A DNA stretch of 39,343 bases, taken from an uncultured SAR86 cluster bacterium. GTDB taxonomy: Bacteria > Pseudomonadota > Gammaproteobacteria > Magnimaribacterales > D2472. A program made the position numbers and the translations under genes. Below are positions 30,210 to 38,004 of this stretch, piece by piece (the first letter of the stretch is position 1; each line of letters begins with the position of its first letter). The notes below the pieces were generated by a model that saw only the letters and a program-made list of their open reading frames with translations, had not been told where the DNA came from and ran no database searches. The stretch is from contig CACEHH010000008.1 of the NCBI GenBank assembly GCA_902559345.1, positions 1 to 39,343 on the forward strand, read 5' to 3'.

Positions 30210-30941
30210 TTAATCAGGATTAAACTGACTCAAACTTACTTCCATGTAGGATCTAATAAAATCACTATATTCATCAGCTTTTGGGTTGTAATCTGCAAAC
30301 TCTTTTGAATTATACATGCCATCCAAAAATGCTAGAGCGTCTTGTGGTTTTGAAAATGCTGCCCAGATTTCATGAGTTATTCTTCCATTGTTTCCTAAAT
30401 AGTGAGATTGAAGACCGTATGCATTAGCAGACCAATCATATTTCTCAATACTTTTAGAAAAGTCTATCCAAAGAGGAACGAATTTAGCCGGATTTGAAAC
30501 CTCTAGACTCCATCTTAGACTTACTACATTATCTGCAGCTGTTCCACTATTTGTCACTCCAACAGTATGTACAGTAAGATTTTGTGCTGTAGCTTTAATA
30601 TCAAGCTCTAGCATTCGCTTTCTAAACTTTCTTCCAGCTTCTGAGGTAACATATAGCTGATTACCTTTAGCATATTCATCTGCACTTTTATAATAAAAAC
30701 TTACCCCATGAGTAGCCTCATCCCAACCATTATGAAGAACTGCATACATATCAGCTTCAAATTTTTGACTTTTTATCTCTGGCGCATTCATGTATTTGTT
30801 AAATGCTTCTAAACATTTAGCAGGCATTGAACAACTAAAAAGAAAATTTGATTGATATTTTGAATATCCAGGCGGCAAATGATCATCTGCAAACAAACCA
30901 AGAGAAGCTATTAAAAATGAACTCATTATTATTTTTTTCAT
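30210..30941 (-). CDS. Exported protein of unknown function with internal duplication
   Basis: The 243-residue protein has a signal peptide (MKKIIMSSFLIASLGLFA) with likely cleavage before DDHLPPG, so it should be periplasmic or secreted. I do not recognise a named family. The mature part seems to consist of two similar halves, about residues 33 to 125 and 143 to 235: MPAKCLEAFNKYM aligns with NPAKFVPLWIDFS, FEADMYAVLHNGW with WSANAYGLQSHYLG, and both continue with a His/Trp plus Ser-rich strand. The pattern is reminiscent of tandem ferredoxin-like (dimeric alpha/beta barrel) domains, which is a guess. Cys37 and Cys43 could form a disulfide. AGGAG lies five bases before the ATG. Confidence 0.85.
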   Translation of the reverse strand: MKKIIMSSFLIASLGLFADDHLPPGYSKYQSNFLFSCSMPAKCLEAFNKYMNAPEIKSQKFEADMYAVLHNGWDEATHGVSFYYKSADEYAKGNQLYVTSEAGRKFRKRMLELDIKATAQNLTVHTVGVTNSGTAADNVVSLRWSLEVSNPAKFVPLWIDFSKSIEKYDWSANAYGLQSHYLGNNGRITHEIWAAFSKPQDALAFLDGMYNSKEFADYNPKADEYSDFIRSYMEVSLSQFNPD

Positions 30942-31366: not shown

Positions 31367-31447
31367 ATGGACCTTTCAGTTTATTTAATTGGTAATCTTG
31401 TTTTTATAGCTCTCTTATATTGGGTTGTTAGAAATAAAGATAACTAA
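31367..31447 (+). CDS. Candidate 26-residue membrane peptide
   Basis: This ATG frame begins two bases after the previous small ORF and encodes a 26-residue peptide made of one hydrophobic helix (SVYLIGNLVFIALLYWVV) and the polar tail RNKDN. The positive charge at the C-terminus predicts the opposite orientation to the preceding peptide. The stop overlaps the end of the convergent amidohydrolase gene by four bases. No Shine-Dalgarno is visible, so translation would depend on coupling to the upstream ORF. Size and shape resemble accessory peptides of respiratory oxidases or transporters, but no homologue is recognised. Confidence 0.45.
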   Translation: MDLSVYLIGNLVFIALLYWVVRNKDN

Positions 31448-32730
31448 TCTCTATATGTATTAGGTTTATCGGGATCAGATGTATATCTGTCACGTAATCT
31501 AGTAGATCTTGTTGTTAGATTCATATTTTCGCCATTTATAAAAACATATTCTGGCATAGAGGATGGCTCTAAAGGGTCTGCATCCCATATGATGATATCA
31601 GCATAATTTCCTGATTTTATTTCTCCTCTATTTTCAATACCAAAAACTTTTGCTGGTGTCGAGGTCAGTCCTTTTATAGCAATTTCATATGACATTCCAT
31701 GAGCAACTGCTACTCCAGCACCTTGTCTTATTAAATGAAAGTTATGGCTTCTAGGGGCAGTAAACATTAGCTCAATACCTGCTTTCTCGAGAATGCTAGC
31801 CATTTTGATATTTGATGCGAGTTCATCGAATGAGCCTGGAATATTATTTATAGGATTAATTATCAAAGGAATATCATTTATAGCAATAATGTCTTTCACC
31901 AAATGAGCTTCTTGAGCTCCCATAATTATCATATTTAGATTATATTTTTTCTTCATTTCAACTAACTTAAGAAGATCTGATGCACGATGAGCTTTCATTA
32001 CTAGAGGTAAATCATCATTAACTAGTCTAAATAAGGCTCTCACATCTCTTGGATGAAGTTCCATGAATTCAGCGATTGGTGACTCATCAATCAATTCAGA
32101 AATATCAACATCTGTATCTAGATCTTTTTGATTTATTGATTTAGCAAAAGACAAAAGATCATCAATTACAGCAAATGTTTCTGATCTTGAATGATTGCTG
32201 CTGCCTCCCACACTTCCTGTCATTACCATATCTTTTTCACCAGTAATGCTTAATTCCCCATCGAGAACAAAATATGATCCTAATCCACCAATAGGACTGG
32301 AAGTATTTTGAGGAATGGTTAAGGCAGATGTAATTCCATTAGATCTATTCCATGGAATTAGGGTTGAATTAGGATTAAAAGCATCAAAAATACTAAATCC
32401 AATTTTATATATTTCAGATGAATCATCTCTAGTAACACTCAAAGCTCCAATTTCAACTATCCCAATATTAGTGTCAGTTGCTATTAATCCTGGTGTAACT
32501 ATTTTTCCAGATGCATTGATAATAAAGTCGCCTTGCATATCACTTGAAGAAACTCTTTTAATTACTGGTCCATCTATAAGAATGTTTCCTTCATATGGTT
32601 CATTTTTATTACCATCATATATGGTGGCATTTTTAATTAAGATTGTTTCTGAAAATACATTTGGGCTGAGAACAATTAATGCATATCCAAAACTTACTAT
32701 CAAGAATTTATGAATTTTTTTACCAATCAT
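31444..32730 (-). CDS. Exported amidohydrolase-like protein, metal ligands largely lost
   Basis: The 428-residue protein has a signal peptide (ending near VFSET) and the overall plan of the imidazolonepropionase-like amidohydrolase family: a small beta domain (ILIKNATIYDG, later NYADIIIWDADP) around a TIM barrel. It aligns along its length with the next gene upstream. However the HxH motif after strand 1 is replaced by ATDTNIG (residues 84 to 90), the lysine-containing segment is changed to SVGGSSN, and the SDD of strand 8 is replaced by APRSHN (325 to 330). His248 in KAHRASD remains. It therefore looks like a non-catalytic or altered partner of the upstream enzyme, from which it is separated by two bases. 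Substrate unknown. Confidence 0.88.
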   Translation of the reverse strand: MIGKKIHKFLIVSFGYALIVLSPNVFSETILIKNATIYDGNKNEPYEGNILIDGPVIKRVSSSDMQGDFIINASGKIVTPGLIATDTNIGIVEIGALSVTRDDSSEIYKIGFSIFDAFNPNSTLIPWNRSNGITSALTIPQNTSSPIGGLGSYFVLDGELSITGEKDMVMTGSVGGSSNHSRSETFAVIDDLLSFAKSINQKDLDTDVDISELIDESPIAEFMELHPRDVRALFRLVNDDLPLVMKAHRASDLLKLVEMKKKYNLNMIIMGAQEAHLVKDIIAINDIPLIINPINNIPGSFDELASNIKMASILEKAGIELMFTAPRSHNFHLIRQGAGVAVAHGMSYEIAIKGLTSTPAKVFGIENRGEIKSGNYADIIIWDADPLEPSSMPEYVFINGENMNLTTRSTRLRDRYTSDPDKPNTYRD

Positions 32731-32732
32731 CG

Positions 32733-34121
32733 TTATTGCTCAGTCCTATTTTTAGTTGGTGAAATGATTCCAACATCAAAGTCACTAGATGGGAAAAAGT
32801 TTGTTGCCCTATTATATGCAAGAGCTCCATCTATAAAAACAGTTTCGGCTAAAGCATAAACACTGAATGGGTTTTTTGACCATATAACAACATCAGCATT
32901 TTTACCTACTTTAATCGAACCTGTCTGGTCATAAATTCCTGCTGCTTTAGCAGGATTGCTTGTTATCCAGTTCATTGCTCTAGCTTTTGTAATATCAAAA
33001 CCTGCTCTTAATCCTGCAGATAATGCTTTTGAAGCCTCTTGATTAAGATGTTGAATACCTATTGCATCATCAGAATGAACTATAGCGCAACCGGTTCCAT
33101 TTCTTGCTTGGTCTACGATTGCAATATTTGCTTGGACCATGTCATATGCTTCATGTTTAAAGCCCCACCAATCTGCCCATAACGCTCCACAAATACCATT
33201 GTCGGCTAATAAATCTGCGATCTTATATGCTTCAACACCATGATGAAATGCTGTTATTTTATAACCAAATTCTTTAGCTACATCTATCATTGATGCCATT
33301 TCATCTGCTCTATAGCAATGGTTGTGAACTAAAATATCTCCTCTCAAAACACCAGCTAATGTATCAAGCTCTAAATCTCTTGTTGGTTTATAACCCATTT
33401 CTTTTGCTTCATCTGATTTAGATTCATATTCATTTAAACGGTTTAAATATGCCTCTGCTTCAATCCATGCTTTTCTATATCCAGCGATATTACCCATCCG
33501 TGTTGATGGTGCTTGTTGTCTATTTCCATATACTCTTTTTGGATTCTCACCACATGCCATTTTTAATGAATGAGGAGCATCTGGGAATTTCATAGAATTG
33601 ATGGTATTTCTCTGAAGATTTTTAACCGTAACACCCCTGCCTCCAATTAAGTTTGCAGAACCAGGAAGTACATGAAAAGCAGTAACTCCTCCGCTTAATG
33701 CAAGTGTGTATTGAGGATCCTGTACCCACATCGAGTGTTCAGCCCACACATCTGCCGTTACTGGACTAGTTGCTTCATTTCCATCAGAGCTAGTTTTAAC
33801 ACCTGGAGCAGGATAAACCCCCATATGAGAATGAATATCAATAATACCAGGTGTTACCCATTTGCCTGAAGCATCGATGACTTCAAAATCATCAGATGCT
33901 GGGAGATCTTTTCCGATAGCAATAATTTTTCTATCTTGAATTAATACATCAGTTTCTTGGAATTCATTACCCTCTCCATCATAAATGTTAGCGTTTTTAA
34001 TAAGCACATTGACTGAGGGCAATGGTTCATAGGTAGACTCAAATGGCTTTGCTGATAATTCAACATTAAAGCAAAAAAATATCAAGGTGAAAGAAACTGA
34101 ATACTTTATAAGATTAATCAT
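32733..34121 (-). CDS. Exported amidohydrolase (imidazolonepropionase-like)
   Basis: The 462-residue precursor has a signal peptide ending near ELSAKP and the amidohydrolase fold, with complete metal site: HSH at 97 to 99 in PGIIDIHSHMGVYP, Lys188 in SLKMACGENPK (candidate carbamylated lysine), His268 in HNHCYRADE, His294 in AFHHGVEAYK and Asp351 in VHSDDAIG. The family hydrolyses C-N bonds, including dipeptides such as prolidase-type substrates and cyclic amides, so a periplasmic peptidase or amidase role is likely, but the substrate cannot be read. It is the first gene of a two-gene operon with the degenerate paralogue. No ribosome binding site is obvious; TATAGA lies about 16 bases before the ATG, so the leader may be very short. 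Confidence 0.93.
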   Translation of the reverse strand: MINLIKYSVSFTLIFFCFNVELSAKPFESTYEPLPSVNVLIKNANIYDGEGNEFQETDVLIQDRKIIAIGKDLPASDDFEVIDASGKWVTPGIIDIHSHMGVYPAPGVKTSSDGNEATSPVTADVWAEHSMWVQDPQYTLALSGGVTAFHVLPGSANLIGGRGVTVKNLQRNTINSMKFPDAPHSLKMACGENPKRVYGNRQQAPSTRMGNIAGYRKAWIEAEAYLNRLNEYESKSDEAKEMGYKPTRDLELDTLAGVLRGDILVHNHCYRADEMASMIDVAKEFGYKITAFHHGVEAYKIADLLADNGICGALWADWWGFKHEAYDMVQANIAIVDQARNGTGCAIVHSDDAIGIQHLNQEASKALSAGLRAGFDITKARAMNWITSNPAKAAGIYDQTGSIKVGKNADVVIWSKNPFSVYALAETVFIDGALAYNRATNFFPSSDFDVGIISPTKNRTEQ

Positions 34122-34232: not shown

Positions 34233-35363
34233 ATGCAGTTAAATTATTTTAATAGGCCTTATTTTGAAAATGGGGCTATAAAAAAAGTTTCTGAAGTTTT
34301 AAAAACTCATGAAATAAAAAATCCACTAATATGTACCGACCCTGGCCTTTCTTCGATAGGTATGACTGACAAAATAAAAGATCTTATATCTAATGATATT
34401 TCGGTATCATTTTATGAAGAAACTCCTGCCAATCCAACAGAAAACGCTGTGAATGATGCTTTAGATTTATATAAATCAAATGATTGTGATGGTGTTATTG
34501 GCTTTGGAGGCGGATCAAGCATAGATTTAGCTAAAGCAGTAGCACTCATGGCCAATCATAAAGGTGAGCTAATTAATTATTCAGTGAATGAGGGAGGTTA
34601 TGAGAAAATAACAAAGACAACTCCTATGATAGCTATTCCAACAACTTCAGGGACAGGAAGTGAGGTATCTATAGGATCTTTGATTACAATGAATGATGGA
34701 AGAAAGTTGATCTATGCTAGCCCGCATCTAATGCCAATTGCTGCAATTTGTGATCCAGAACTTACAATTGGTTTACCTCCAGTCCTTACAGCTGGAGCCG
34801 GAATGGATGCATTGACACATTGTATAGAAGCTATTTTATCTCCTATAAATGATCCTCCTGCTGAAGCAGTAGGCATAGATGGTATTGAAAAAATTATCAA
34901 AGAAGAAGGTATTATAAGGGCATATAAAGACGGGCATGACAAAGAGGCGAGATGGAACATGATGATGGCATCTACAGAAGGAGCTATGGCTTTTCAAAAA
35001 GGCCTTGGAGCTGTTCACTCTATGAGTCATGCGTTAGGAGCTAACCAAGAACTAAGACTGCATCATGGAACTCTAAATGCAGTTATCTTGCCAACAGTCT
35101 TAAGATTTAATAAAGATCATGTAGGCAATAAATATTCAAGAATTGCTCGAGCAATGGGAAAAGATGAATCAATTAATTTGGCAAATGAAATTGAAAAATT
35201 AAATGAAAAAATTGGTATACCTAGCAATCTAACAGAAATGGGAATAACTGAAGATATGATTCCTAATCTTGTTTCTCATGCCAAAGAAGACCCCAGCAAT
35301 ATAACTACACCTAGATTACCATCTCAAGAAGAATGGGAAAAACTTTTTCTAGAAGCTATGTAA
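34233..35363 (+). CDS. Iron-containing alcohol dehydrogenase
   Basis: This 376-residue group III alcohol dehydrogenase should oxidise an alcohol or reduce an aldehyde with NAD(P)H. The nucleotide-binding motif GFGGGSSIDLAKA (residues 90 to 102) and PTTSGTGSEVS (136 to 146) are intact. Metal ligands are expected at Asp192 and His196 (AGMDALTHCIEA), His262 (VHSMSHALG) and His278 (HHGTLNAV). It is divergent from the amidohydrolase operon across a 111-base gap. Only a weak AAGAG precedes the ATG. No partner enzyme is adjacent, so its substrate is unknown; the metal may be iron or zinc. Confidence 0.94.
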   Translation: MQLNYFNRPYFENGAIKKVSEVLKTHEIKNPLICTDPGLSSIGMTDKIKDLISNDISVSFYEETPANPTENAVNDALDLYKSNDCDGVIGFGGGSSIDLAKAVALMANHKGELINYSVNEGGYEKITKTTPMIAIPTTSGTGSEVSIGSLITMNDGRKLIYASPHLMPIAAICDPELTIGLPPVLTAGAGMDALTHCIEAILSPINDPPAEAVGIDGIEKIIKEEGIIRAYKDGHDKEARWNMMMASTEGAMAFQKGLGAVHSMSHALGANQELRLHHGTLNAVILPTVLRFNKDHVGNKYSRIARAMGKDESINLANEIEKLNEKIGIPSNLTEMGITEDMIPNLVSHAKEDPSNITTPRLPSQEEWEKLFLEAM

Positions 35364-35718: not shown

Positions 35719-38004
35719 ATGAAAAAATTTTTAAACGCAATTATAGTATTAATTGCATTTCATTCGGTAAATGTTACATCTCAGGATGAAGTAGAAGAAG
35801 TTGTAGTTACTTCAGCTTTTATTGATACTTCTGAAATCAATAATCCCCTTTATGTTATCGATGGTGCTGACTTTACTGAAGCAGCCACAACAAGCTTGGG
35901 TGATGCTATTGATGAATATTTGGGAGTATCTATTGCTGATTATGGTTCTGCAGTAGGCCAACCTATCATAAGAGGCATGTCTGGACCAAGAGTAAAAATT
36001 CTTAAAAACGGAATGGTTAACCGTGATGTTTCTGGTCTTGGTGTAGATCACTTAAATGATGTAGATTTAAATGATATAAGCCAAGTTGAAATTATTAAAG
36101 GTCCCTCATCATTGCTTTATGCAAATGGTACTATTGGAGGAATCATTAATGTGGTTGATGAACTCATATCTGCAAATGACTTCGAAATGCCTGAGCTTAA
36201 AATTGGTTATGAAGATCAATCAGTAAATGATGGAAATTCTGAATTTATAAGCTTTAAAAATAATATTGCTGGATTCAATGTAAGCTTTGGCTATAAGAAT
36301 ACAGATTTCGGTAATTATGATGTTCCTAATGGCGCTGTTATTCATGAAGAAGAAGAGCATCACGAGGAAGATGATCACGACGAAGATGAACATCATGATG
36401 AGCATCACGAAGAAGATATGGGCTATATCAATAATTCTGATTTTGCCGTCGAAGCAACAAAATTTGGCATGTCTAAAGTTACAAATTGGGGCTACATTGG
36501 TTTTGGAATTGATAATCTTGAAAGTGTTTATGGCATTCCTTTCCATGGAGATGAACACGGTGATGAACACGGTGATGAACATGGTGATGAGCACGGTGAT
36601 GATGATGGTGATGAACATGGTGATGATGAAGATCATGAAGGTCATGATGAACATGGTGAAGAAAGAATCTTTTCAACAACTGATTCTGAAACATTCTCAA
36701 TTAAGGGCTCATATAATGTCAATGGAAATTTAGTTAATAAAATTGATTTTTCATATCGTGATTCAGACTATTCTTTAACTGAAGCTCATGAGGAAGAAGG
36801 TCATGATGATCATGGTGATGATCATGGTGATGATCATGGTGATGAGCATGAGGAAGAAGGTCATGCTCCAACAGTCTTTATGAATGAAGCAGTCGAGTAC
36901 ACTGCAGCTTTTGATATGTCCAATGATAGCTCAACTCAAAAAGTTGTAGTCAATTTTGTTGATGAGGATAACTCTATTGTTGGTGAGGAAGCATTCATGA
37001 ATCCTGCTAATAGTGAGGAATTCACAATTGGTTATTACCTTAGTAAAGACTTAGGTATGTATGATCTAGATTTTGGATATAGGTTAGATCAAATTGAAAG
37101 AACTGGTAGTGTTACAGATGAGGATCATGGAGATATTGATTATTACACTATAGACGATTCTACAAGTAGCTTTGCAGTTACTCTTGGTACAGATCTAAGT
37201 GATTCTCTTGGTGTAAGCGTTGGGTATGCAAGTGTTGAGAGACTCCCATCTTCTATCGAACTATTTATGAATGGGCCTCATATGGCTACTGGTAGATTTG
37301 AAGTTGGTAATCCAAATCTAAACAGTGAAACTTCAAATAACTTTGATATTACCTTTAACTTTGATAACGGAGATTTCTATGGTTATGCAAGTTTTTATAT
37401 CACTGATGTGGATAACTATATTGCGCTAATAGATGAAGAAGACGATCATCATGATGAAGATGAGCATCATGATGAAGATGAGCATCATGAAGATGAGGAT
37501 GAACATCATGATGAAGATGAACATGATGACCATGGTCATGGTAATTTAATCCATGCAAATTATATGCAAGAAGATGCTGAGTTTGATGGTTATGAGTTCG
37601 AAGTTGGAAAAAGTTTCGACTTAGGTTCAGGCGAGTTATCTTTATCTTTTGGAAGAGATGTAGTTAATGCTAAATTTTCAGATGGGCATAATGTACCTAG
37701 AATTAATCCAGCAAGAAACATATATTCTTTATCTTACAAACAAGAAGATCTACTTTTCAAAATGACTCTTAAGGATGTTGAAAAACAAAATGATTTTGGT
37801 GAGGGCGAAACAGCAACTGATTCTTATCAAATGCTTAATACAAGACTTACCAAAACATATAGTGTTGGTGATAGTGATATAAAAGTATCACTATTTGCTA
37901 ATAATCTACTTGATGAGGTAGCAAGAAATCATGCATCTTTTGTTAAAGATGAAGTTCCTCTTCCTGGAAGAAACTATGGTTTAAAGTTTAACCTTAATTT
38001 CTAA
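35719..38004 (+). CDS. TonB-dependent receptor with His/Asp/Glu-rich loops, probable zinc uptake
   Basis: A 761-residue outer membrane receptor. It has a signal peptide (about residues 1 to 21), a TonB box-like EEVVVTSAF, a plug domain with GQPIIRGMSGPRVKILKNGM and EIIKGPSSLLYANGTIGGI, and a beta barrel ending in GRNYGLKFNLNF with a terminal aromatic residue. Four segments are extremely rich in His, Asp and Glu: about residues 209 to 234, 276 to 315, 355 to 382 and 572 to 608. They should lie in extracellular loops and capture metal, as in ZnuD-type zinc receptors. AGGAGGAA five bases before the ATG is the strongest ribosome binding site in the accessory region. Zinc is the likeliest ligand, copper or nickel possible. 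Confidence 0.9.
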   Translation: MKKFLNAIIVLIAFHSVNVTSQDEVEEVVVTSAFIDTSEINNPLYVIDGADFTEAATTSLGDAIDEYLGVSIADYGSAVGQPIIRGMSGPRVKILKNGMVNRDVSGLGVDHLNDVDLNDISQVEIIKGPSSLLYANGTIGGIINVVDELISANDFEMPELKIGYEDQSVNDGNSEFISFKNNIAGFNVSFGYKNTDFGNYDVPNGAVIHEEEEHHEEDDHDEDEHHDEHHEEDMGYINNSDFAVEATKFGMSKVTNWGYIGFGIDNLESVYGIPFHGDEHGDEHGDEHGDEHGDDDGDEHGDDEDHEGHDEHGEERIFSTTDSETFSIKGSYNVNGNLVNKIDFSYRDSDYSLTEAHEEEGHDDHGDDHGDDHGDEHEEEGHAPTVFMNEAVEYTAAFDMSNDSSTQKVVVNFVDEDNSIVGEEAFMNPANSEEFTIGYYLSKDLGMYDLDFGYRLDQIERTGSVTDEDHGDIDYYTIDDSTSSFAVTLGTDLSDSLGVSVGYASVERLPSSIELFMNGPHMATGRFEVGNPNLNSETSNNFDITFNFDNGDFYGYASFYITDVDNYIALIDEEDDHHDEDEHHDEDEHHEDEDEHHDEDEHDDHGHGNLIHANYMQEDAEFDGYEFEVGKSFDLGSGELSLSFGRDVVNAKFSDGHNVPRINPARNIYSLSYKQEDLLFKMTLKDVEKQNDFGEGETATDSYQMLNTRLTKTYSVGDSDIKVSLFANNLLDEVARNHASFVKDEVPLPGRNYGLKFNLNF
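36343..36420 (+). repeat. His/Glu/Asp-rich coding segment 1 of the receptor
   Basis: Imperfect GAA/GAT/CAT codon repetition encoding a run of about 26 residues that is almost entirely Glu, Asp and His. It lies shortly after the plug-barrel junction. Confidence 0.8.
36541..36663 (+). repeat. Tandem 12-base repeats encoding His-Gly-Asp-Glu units
   Basis: At least four near-identical copies of the unit GATGAACACGGT with mostly third-position changes, followed by degenerate copies. They encode repeated D-E-H-G tetrapeptides. Such an array is prone to copy-number change by slippage, always in frame because the unit is 12 bases. Confidence 0.9.
36781..36864 (+). repeat. Tandem 12-base repeats encoding His-Gly-Asp-Asp units
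   Basis: Copies of GATGATCATGGT flanked by two copies of the sequence for HEEEGH. The symmetrical layout suggests growth by duplication inside the loop. Confidence 0.85.
37432..37542 (+). repeat. Repeats encoding His-His-Asp-Glu-Asp-Glu units
   Basis: Several copies of a 15-base unit CATCATGATGAAGAT and its variants encode H-H-D-E-D followed by a variable Glu-containing linker. This array is in a later barrel loop than the other three. Confidence 0.85.

Follow-up and report, generated by a model that had tools for sequence, protein, structure and literature searches.

A metal-ligand-bearing amidohydrolase and its ligandless paralogue encoded side by side in a SAR86 bacterium: a probable enzyme/pseudoenzyme pair

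Two described assemblies resemble the gene pair reported here. The 2-aminoisobutyrate hydroxylase AibH1H2 is a heterodimer with AibH2 as the catalytic subunit and AibH1 as the presumed structural one. AibH2 is homologous to a hydroxylase that was repurposed within the amidohydrolase superfamily, and it has a flexible loop near the interface, where contact with the partner was proposed to help the loop form the metal site (PMC12141560, excerpted text). In the ATCase-pDHO of Pseudomonas, the transcarbamoylase depends for its activity and stability on an inactive dihydroorotase-like subunit, and the homologous domain of yeast is described as lacking the zinc ligands (PMC7053772, excerpted text).

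We analyzed a 39,343-nt stretch of DNA from an uncultured SAR86 bacterium (the window), one contig of a genome of 0.92 Mb rated 71.67% complete. Two adjacent genes of the window encode an amidohydrolase with a full set of metal ligands (P1) and a paralogue that has lost them (P2). AibH1H2 resembles what we propose for P1/P2 in that its catalytic subunit stems from an amidohydrolase and has a partner whose role is mainly structural; it differs in its Pfam family, given as PF4909, in that AibH1 still binds metal, and in being a Mn/Fe hydroxylase (PMC12141560, excerpted text). For P1 and P2, only PF01979 and PF07969 were reported at E up to 0.1, and PF04909 (Amidohydro_2) was not. The partner in ATCase-pDHO is a transcarbamoylase, of a different pathway (as far as the excerpts of PMC7053772 go), whereas the fixed neighbor of P2 is the amidohydrolase P1 (80 of 80 named loci, best 80 of 577 P1 matches). 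P1/P2 belongs to neither type, being set apart from AibH1H2 by its Pfam family and from ATCase-pDHO by its partner. The type of mechanism is already known from these two systems (excerpted text), and no description of the P1/P2 pair itself was found in the literature searched (open-licence PubMed Central text).

The best solved match of both proteins, the Thermotoga maritima amidohydrolase PDB 3ooq, retains six ligands, unlike P2, and its entry title gives no function. Dihydropyrimidinase-related proteins (CRMPs) were found among the weaker rows of the solved-structure sequence searches for both P1 and P2. These are animal proteins of the dihydropyrimidinase branch that have the amidohydrolase fold, have lost the metal ligands and are not known to have an operon partner.

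Translation of the window gave two open, co-oriented frames on the minus strand. P1 (32733..34121, 462 aa) is the first gene of the pair and P2 (31444..32730, 428 aa) the second; each has a signal-like N-terminus, and at the junction (32731..32735) the P1 stop codon is followed by 2 bases and then by the P2 ATG. Translation and alignment placed the P1 ligands at H97-S98-H99 (the first metal-ligand motif, HSH; 33825..33833), K187 (33561..33563), H268 (33318..33320), H294 (33240..33242) and D351 (33069..33071), all on the minus strand; K187 is presumably the bridging (carboxylated) lysine expected from amidohydrolase chemistry. On the same strand, P2 has D86-T87-N88 (32467..32475) in place of HSH, no lysine equivalent to K187 in the alignment, and P326-R327-S328 (31747..31755) in place of the ligand Asp, with D351 of P1 aligned to P326. 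A first-pass annotation of this DNA had described a complete enzyme next to a stripped one, and this was borne out. Its ligand list stood for HSH, His268, His294 and Asp351 and was wrong for Lys188, the lysine being K187; its substitution of PRS for SDD was right within one residue. Among the matches listed, the nearest named relatives of P1 were uncultured SAR86 bacteria.

By both sequence and fold, P1 and P2 are closest to 3ooq, clearly above other solved amidohydrolases (phmmer, 2.1e-67 for P1 and 7.6e-30 for P2). AlphaFold2 single-chain models had a mean pLDDT of 84.2 for P1 and 93.4 for P2. Against 3ooq_F, the P1 model gave Z = 41.2 (380 residues aligned, rmsd 2.5; next entry Z = 23.4) and the P2 model Z = 43.8 (363 residues aligned, rmsd 2.8; next entry Z = 25.3); a Foldseek comparison covered P2 only. 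A match to 3ooq at this Z means that P2 has the complete amidohydrolase fold but not the set of metal ligands, and the earlier impression of retained fold elements in an intact frame agrees with the open frame and the predicted fold. Both proteins passed the Pfam gathering cut-offs for PF01979 (P1, 42.1 bits; P2, 37 bits; cut-off 25) and PF07969 (P1, 54.7 bits; P2, 32.3 bits; cut-off 29.7). The NCBIfam matches listed for P1 and P2 (the best 25 of 55 and the best 25 of 76) were far under their cut-offs, as with the Xaa-Pro dipeptidase equivalog NF051886 (P1, 54.2 bits; P2, 23.8 bits; cut-off 500). Both proteins have conserved residues at their termini beyond the 3ooq-aligned part (P1, S29, Y31, D447 and F448; P2, L412, R415 and Y416), and these are candidates for an interface.

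All six ligands (HxH, Lys, His, His and Asp) were kept in 143 of 143 distinct P1. In the 140 distinct P2, none of the six was kept in 111 proteins, one in 24 and two in 5; the places retained were those of H268 (16 proteins), D351 (11), H99 (4), K187 (2), H294 (1) and H97 (0). Ligands that are displaced but present in P2 were therefore considered and rejected on the sequence alignment, no P2 having more than two of the six; the conserved H329 of P2 did not fall at any ligand place in that alignment. The P1 and P2 sets comprised 152 rows each with repeats, distinct proteins being counted by their last 190 residues. Locus L045 (short P1) and repeats were left out when the rows were assembled; among the rows used, the P1 of L032 and L090 are short, some class-sample P1 are clipped at the edge of the stretch (e.g., L060), and the P2 of L156 runs off its contig.

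Median dN/dS (NG86) was 0.150 for P2 (maximum 0.348) and 0.070 for P1 over 331 SAR86-type locus pairs, which are those with dS < 2 in both genes out of 780 pairs from 40 loci and are not independent. The dN of P2 was approximately 2.25-times that of P1 over all pairs. P2 is under purifying selection, weaker than that on P1. The first-pass annotation had turned to relatives for whether the ligand losses are fixed and the second gene constrained, and both proved to be the case; P2 showed neither displaced ligands in the alignment nor random decay. In three same-family genomes (G100, G104 and G044), P1 or P2 was split over frames or carried stops, which may be sequencing errors.

The two genes were found together far beyond the genome of the window. 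At every one of the 80 named loci (the 80 best of 577 P1 matches), P2 lay directly downstream of P1 on the same strand, and the genes overlapped by 4 bases in 55 of these 80, an approximate count since start codons were picked by rule. Named carriers include SAR86, Microbulbifer, Lysobacter, Xanthomonas, Glaciecola, Colwellia, Sphingomonas, Caulobacter and Hyphomonas, among others; in one annotated relative both genes are annotated as amidohydrolase. The named loci were sought with paired P1 sequences, and linkage is tested with less bias in the phylum sample: P1 was present in 36 of 299 genomes, with P2 beside it in 36 of 36. The P2 search passed in 35 of the 36; the remaining genome (G700) missed the cut-off of 1e-12 and was counted on a directly downstream HMM match of 262 bits. 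The class sample gave 14 carriers in 274 genomes, the same 14 for each gene and adjacent in every one. These two samples share genomes, and the genome of the window is counted in the family, class and phylum samples. Strong matches (E < 1e-50, against weak ones at E > 1e-6, a grouping of our own) in the same-family sample of 107 genomes gave 89 genomes with both genes, 16 with neither and 2 with a single gene, both of the latter ending at contig edges. Many of these same-family genomes are incomplete, and joint absence may partly be missing sequence.

No third conserved neighbor was detected, the commonest cluster occurring at 8 of 80 named loci (best 80 of 577), in a clustering of open frames only, where shadow frames make up some of the clusters and several of the loci are short. 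The neighboring genes of these 80 loci gave no functional clue. The P1-P2 pair is the conserved unit. Several neighbors were recorded by sequence look. In the window, P1 has as its divergent neighbor a frame (34233..35363, plus strand) that resembles an iron-type alcohol dehydrogenase; a frame like a zinc-type alcohol dehydrogenase lies upstream of the pair instead in five named relatives (L087-L091). The frame at 35719..38004 (plus strand) has the look of a TonB-dependent receptor, perhaps for a metal, and contains long His/Asp-rich repeats; six named relatives (L086-L091) have a frame upstream of the pair that resembles it by eye. The frame at 30210..30941 (minus strand) encodes a 243-aa protein with an N-terminus that appears signal-like by eye and with no Pfam family at E 0.01. 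On a Qipengyuania plasmid, a single case, a peptide transporter lies just upstream of the pair.

A sister lineage of 7 loci showed a different arrangement. Its catalytic protein is approximately 1000 aa long, with an amidohydrolase-like ligandless domain at the N-terminus, the catalytic domain at the C-terminus and a middle region between them. The N-terminal domain had 0 of 6 ligands in six loci and 1 of 6 in one, and the catalytic domain had 6 of 6. A P2-type gene lay directly downstream of the fused gene in 7 of 7 loci; these downstream genes kept no ligand (one gene), one ligand (four) or two (two), most often at the H268 place (6 of 7). In a tree of 25 P1 and 25 P2 rows, with a midpoint root for drawing only, P1 joined the catalytic domain of the fused proteins (100/97), and the two together joined the lone homologues described below (96/94); P2 clustered, with weak support (81/18), with the genes that lie downstream of the fused ones. 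The fused ligandless domain formed a lineage separate from P2; therefore, what the fusion demonstrates is the tying of such a domain to the enzyme and not a fusion of P2. Two further loci were recorded. On a plasmid of Hymenobacter volaticus (Bacteroidota; L191, 3592-6981), the order is that of the fused lineage, a P2-type gene lying downstream of a catalytic gene that is spread over two reading frames. A distant third pair, a six-ligand protein and a neighbor with one ligand, occurs at L250 (G592:C1:1647500-1653500), in a genome that also carries an ordinary P1-P2 pair.

We consider it likely, with a probability of roughly 0.7, that P1 and P2 form a hetero-oligomer of enzyme and pseudoenzyme that goes back to a single enzyme. 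P1 would be a working metal-dependent amidohydrolase, its ligands being observed and its metal content and activity predicted from them, and P2 a pseudoenzyme subunit produced with P1 from the same two-gene unit. Both would be exported and would assemble in the periplasm, with P1 lipid-anchored in some relatives, and only P1 would hold metal and hydrolyze in the hetero-oligomer. P2 would retain the ancestral fold and interface of an enzyme that presumably self-assembled and would order the active-site loop of P1. What was observed is the ligand pattern, the predicted fold, the fixed linkage, the purifying selection and the fused ligandless domain of the sister lineage; the heteromer is suggested indirectly by the co-occurrence, by the close or overlapping genes, by that fused domain and by a complementary loss of residues. 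Because P1 and P2 travel together in the sampled proteobacterial genomes, P2 is probably a needed partner of P1 and not junk.

The loop in question, residues 104-128 of P1 (33738..33812, minus strand), contains D113, N115, E116 and E128, which were invariant in a 58-row alignment. With P1 modelled alone, residues 104-115 and 117-128 had pLDDT < 50, a low confidence that may only reflect the shallow alignment (58 rows). P2 probably orders this loop, as judged from the low confidence of a segment with invariant residues and from the AibH1H2 precedent as excerpted.

The complementary loss was seen by comparison with homologues that stand alone. In Acetoanaerobium, Monoglobus, Cytobacillus and Nonomuraea, one place was found in each searched record (E 1e-20); these genera lie in other phyla, and sampling outside the proteobacteria was thin. 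Together with 3ooq they make five lone proteins, each with 6 of 6 ligands, and the window differs from this form in having two genes, one of them ligandless, in place of one gene that carries the full ligand set. The five share 76 invariant columns, of which 21 were kept in both P1 and P2, 25 in P1 only, 7 in P2 only and 9 in neither, with 14 mixed (60 of the 152 rows of each protein were compared). The P1-only columns include H97, H99, K187, H268, H294, N115, E116, N193, K195, K322 and E324; the P2-only columns are P242, D252, the Ile at 253, P293, L314, G318 and G345. This comparison put the Asp ligand of the lone proteins one column off D351 and so scored it as kept in neither; in the separate ligand alignment, it falls at D351. 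D252 is found in 5 of 5 lone homologues, and E93 (in P2 at 32452..32454, minus strand) and N119 in 4 of 5 each; all three are kept in P2 and lost in P1. Such a pattern is as expected if a self-assembling ancestral enzyme divided its roles. A stronger version, which we put forward tentatively and on balance doubt, is that duplication split this enzyme into two obligate halves. P1 would have kept the metal site and P2 would have given it up, and P2 would supply in trans to the P1 active site the residues or interface that P1 lost, the places concerned being E93, N119, D252, L314, G318 and G345.

P2 might instead be an enzyme in its own right, metal-free or of different chemistry, that uses E93, D102, R182, R249, D252, E274, H329 and N330 and acts in the pathway of P1 without contacting it. 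One operon can encode pathway enzymes that do not touch, the fold of P2 is predicted at high confidence, and both the faster dN of P2 and its own conserved polar residues also fit a separate function. Among the 140 distinct P2, D102 was conserved in 139, D252 in 134, E93 in 133 (Asp in the other 7), R182 in 131, H329 in 122 and N330 in 116 (H329-N330, 31741..31746, minus strand), in company with G132 (140), G149 (140) and R415 (137). However, E93, N119 and D252 occur in the lone homologues and are lost in P1, and D102, R182, R249 and E274 are common to P1; thus, these residues need not mark new chemistry. In addition, P2 without P1 occurred only once in the family, class and phylum samples, at a contig edge. 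We regard an independent enzyme as unlikely.

Co-occurrence and close spacing would fit equally a secreted binding or regulatory protein that captures substrate, inhibits P1 or helps it fold, with only brief contact. Here the evidence on location is relevant. Hydrophobic signal-like N-termini were found in 136 of 152 P1 and 141 of 152 P2 rows by a crude hydropathy scan, suggesting that both proteins are exported. A strict lipobox matched 47 of 152 P1 rows versus 2 of 152 P2 rows, with no strict match in the P1 of the window itself; P1 may therefore be membrane-anchored in some relatives, and the two proteins may not always share a location. The permanent fusion of a ligandless domain to the catalytic domain in the sister lineage favors a standing assembly over brief contact, and we find a transient role quite improbable. 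That P2 is a duplicate in decay or an artefact of annotation, as its lost ligands, its faster evolution and the split frames of a few same-family genomes might suggest, was rejected as having a negligible chance, given the purifying selection, the near-invariant residues of P2, the frames open in most relatives and the fixed linkage.

If the hetero-oligomer reading is right, P1/P2 would be a widespread system in which an enzyme and an obligate pseudoenzyme share one fold, and its lone, paired and fused forms would let the path from one enzyme to two subunits be followed. With both genes called amidohydrolase, as in the one annotated relative, P2 would be counted as an enzyme, which it cannot be if the usual mechanism applies, and assays of P1 may leave out a partner that it would need; the practical rule would be to co-express both genes to find the activity of this uncharacterized clade. 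Should the two genes be obligate halves of one enzyme, a whole lineage of exported amidohydrolases would depend on a pseudoenzyme, and its sister branch would have fused a further ligandless domain.
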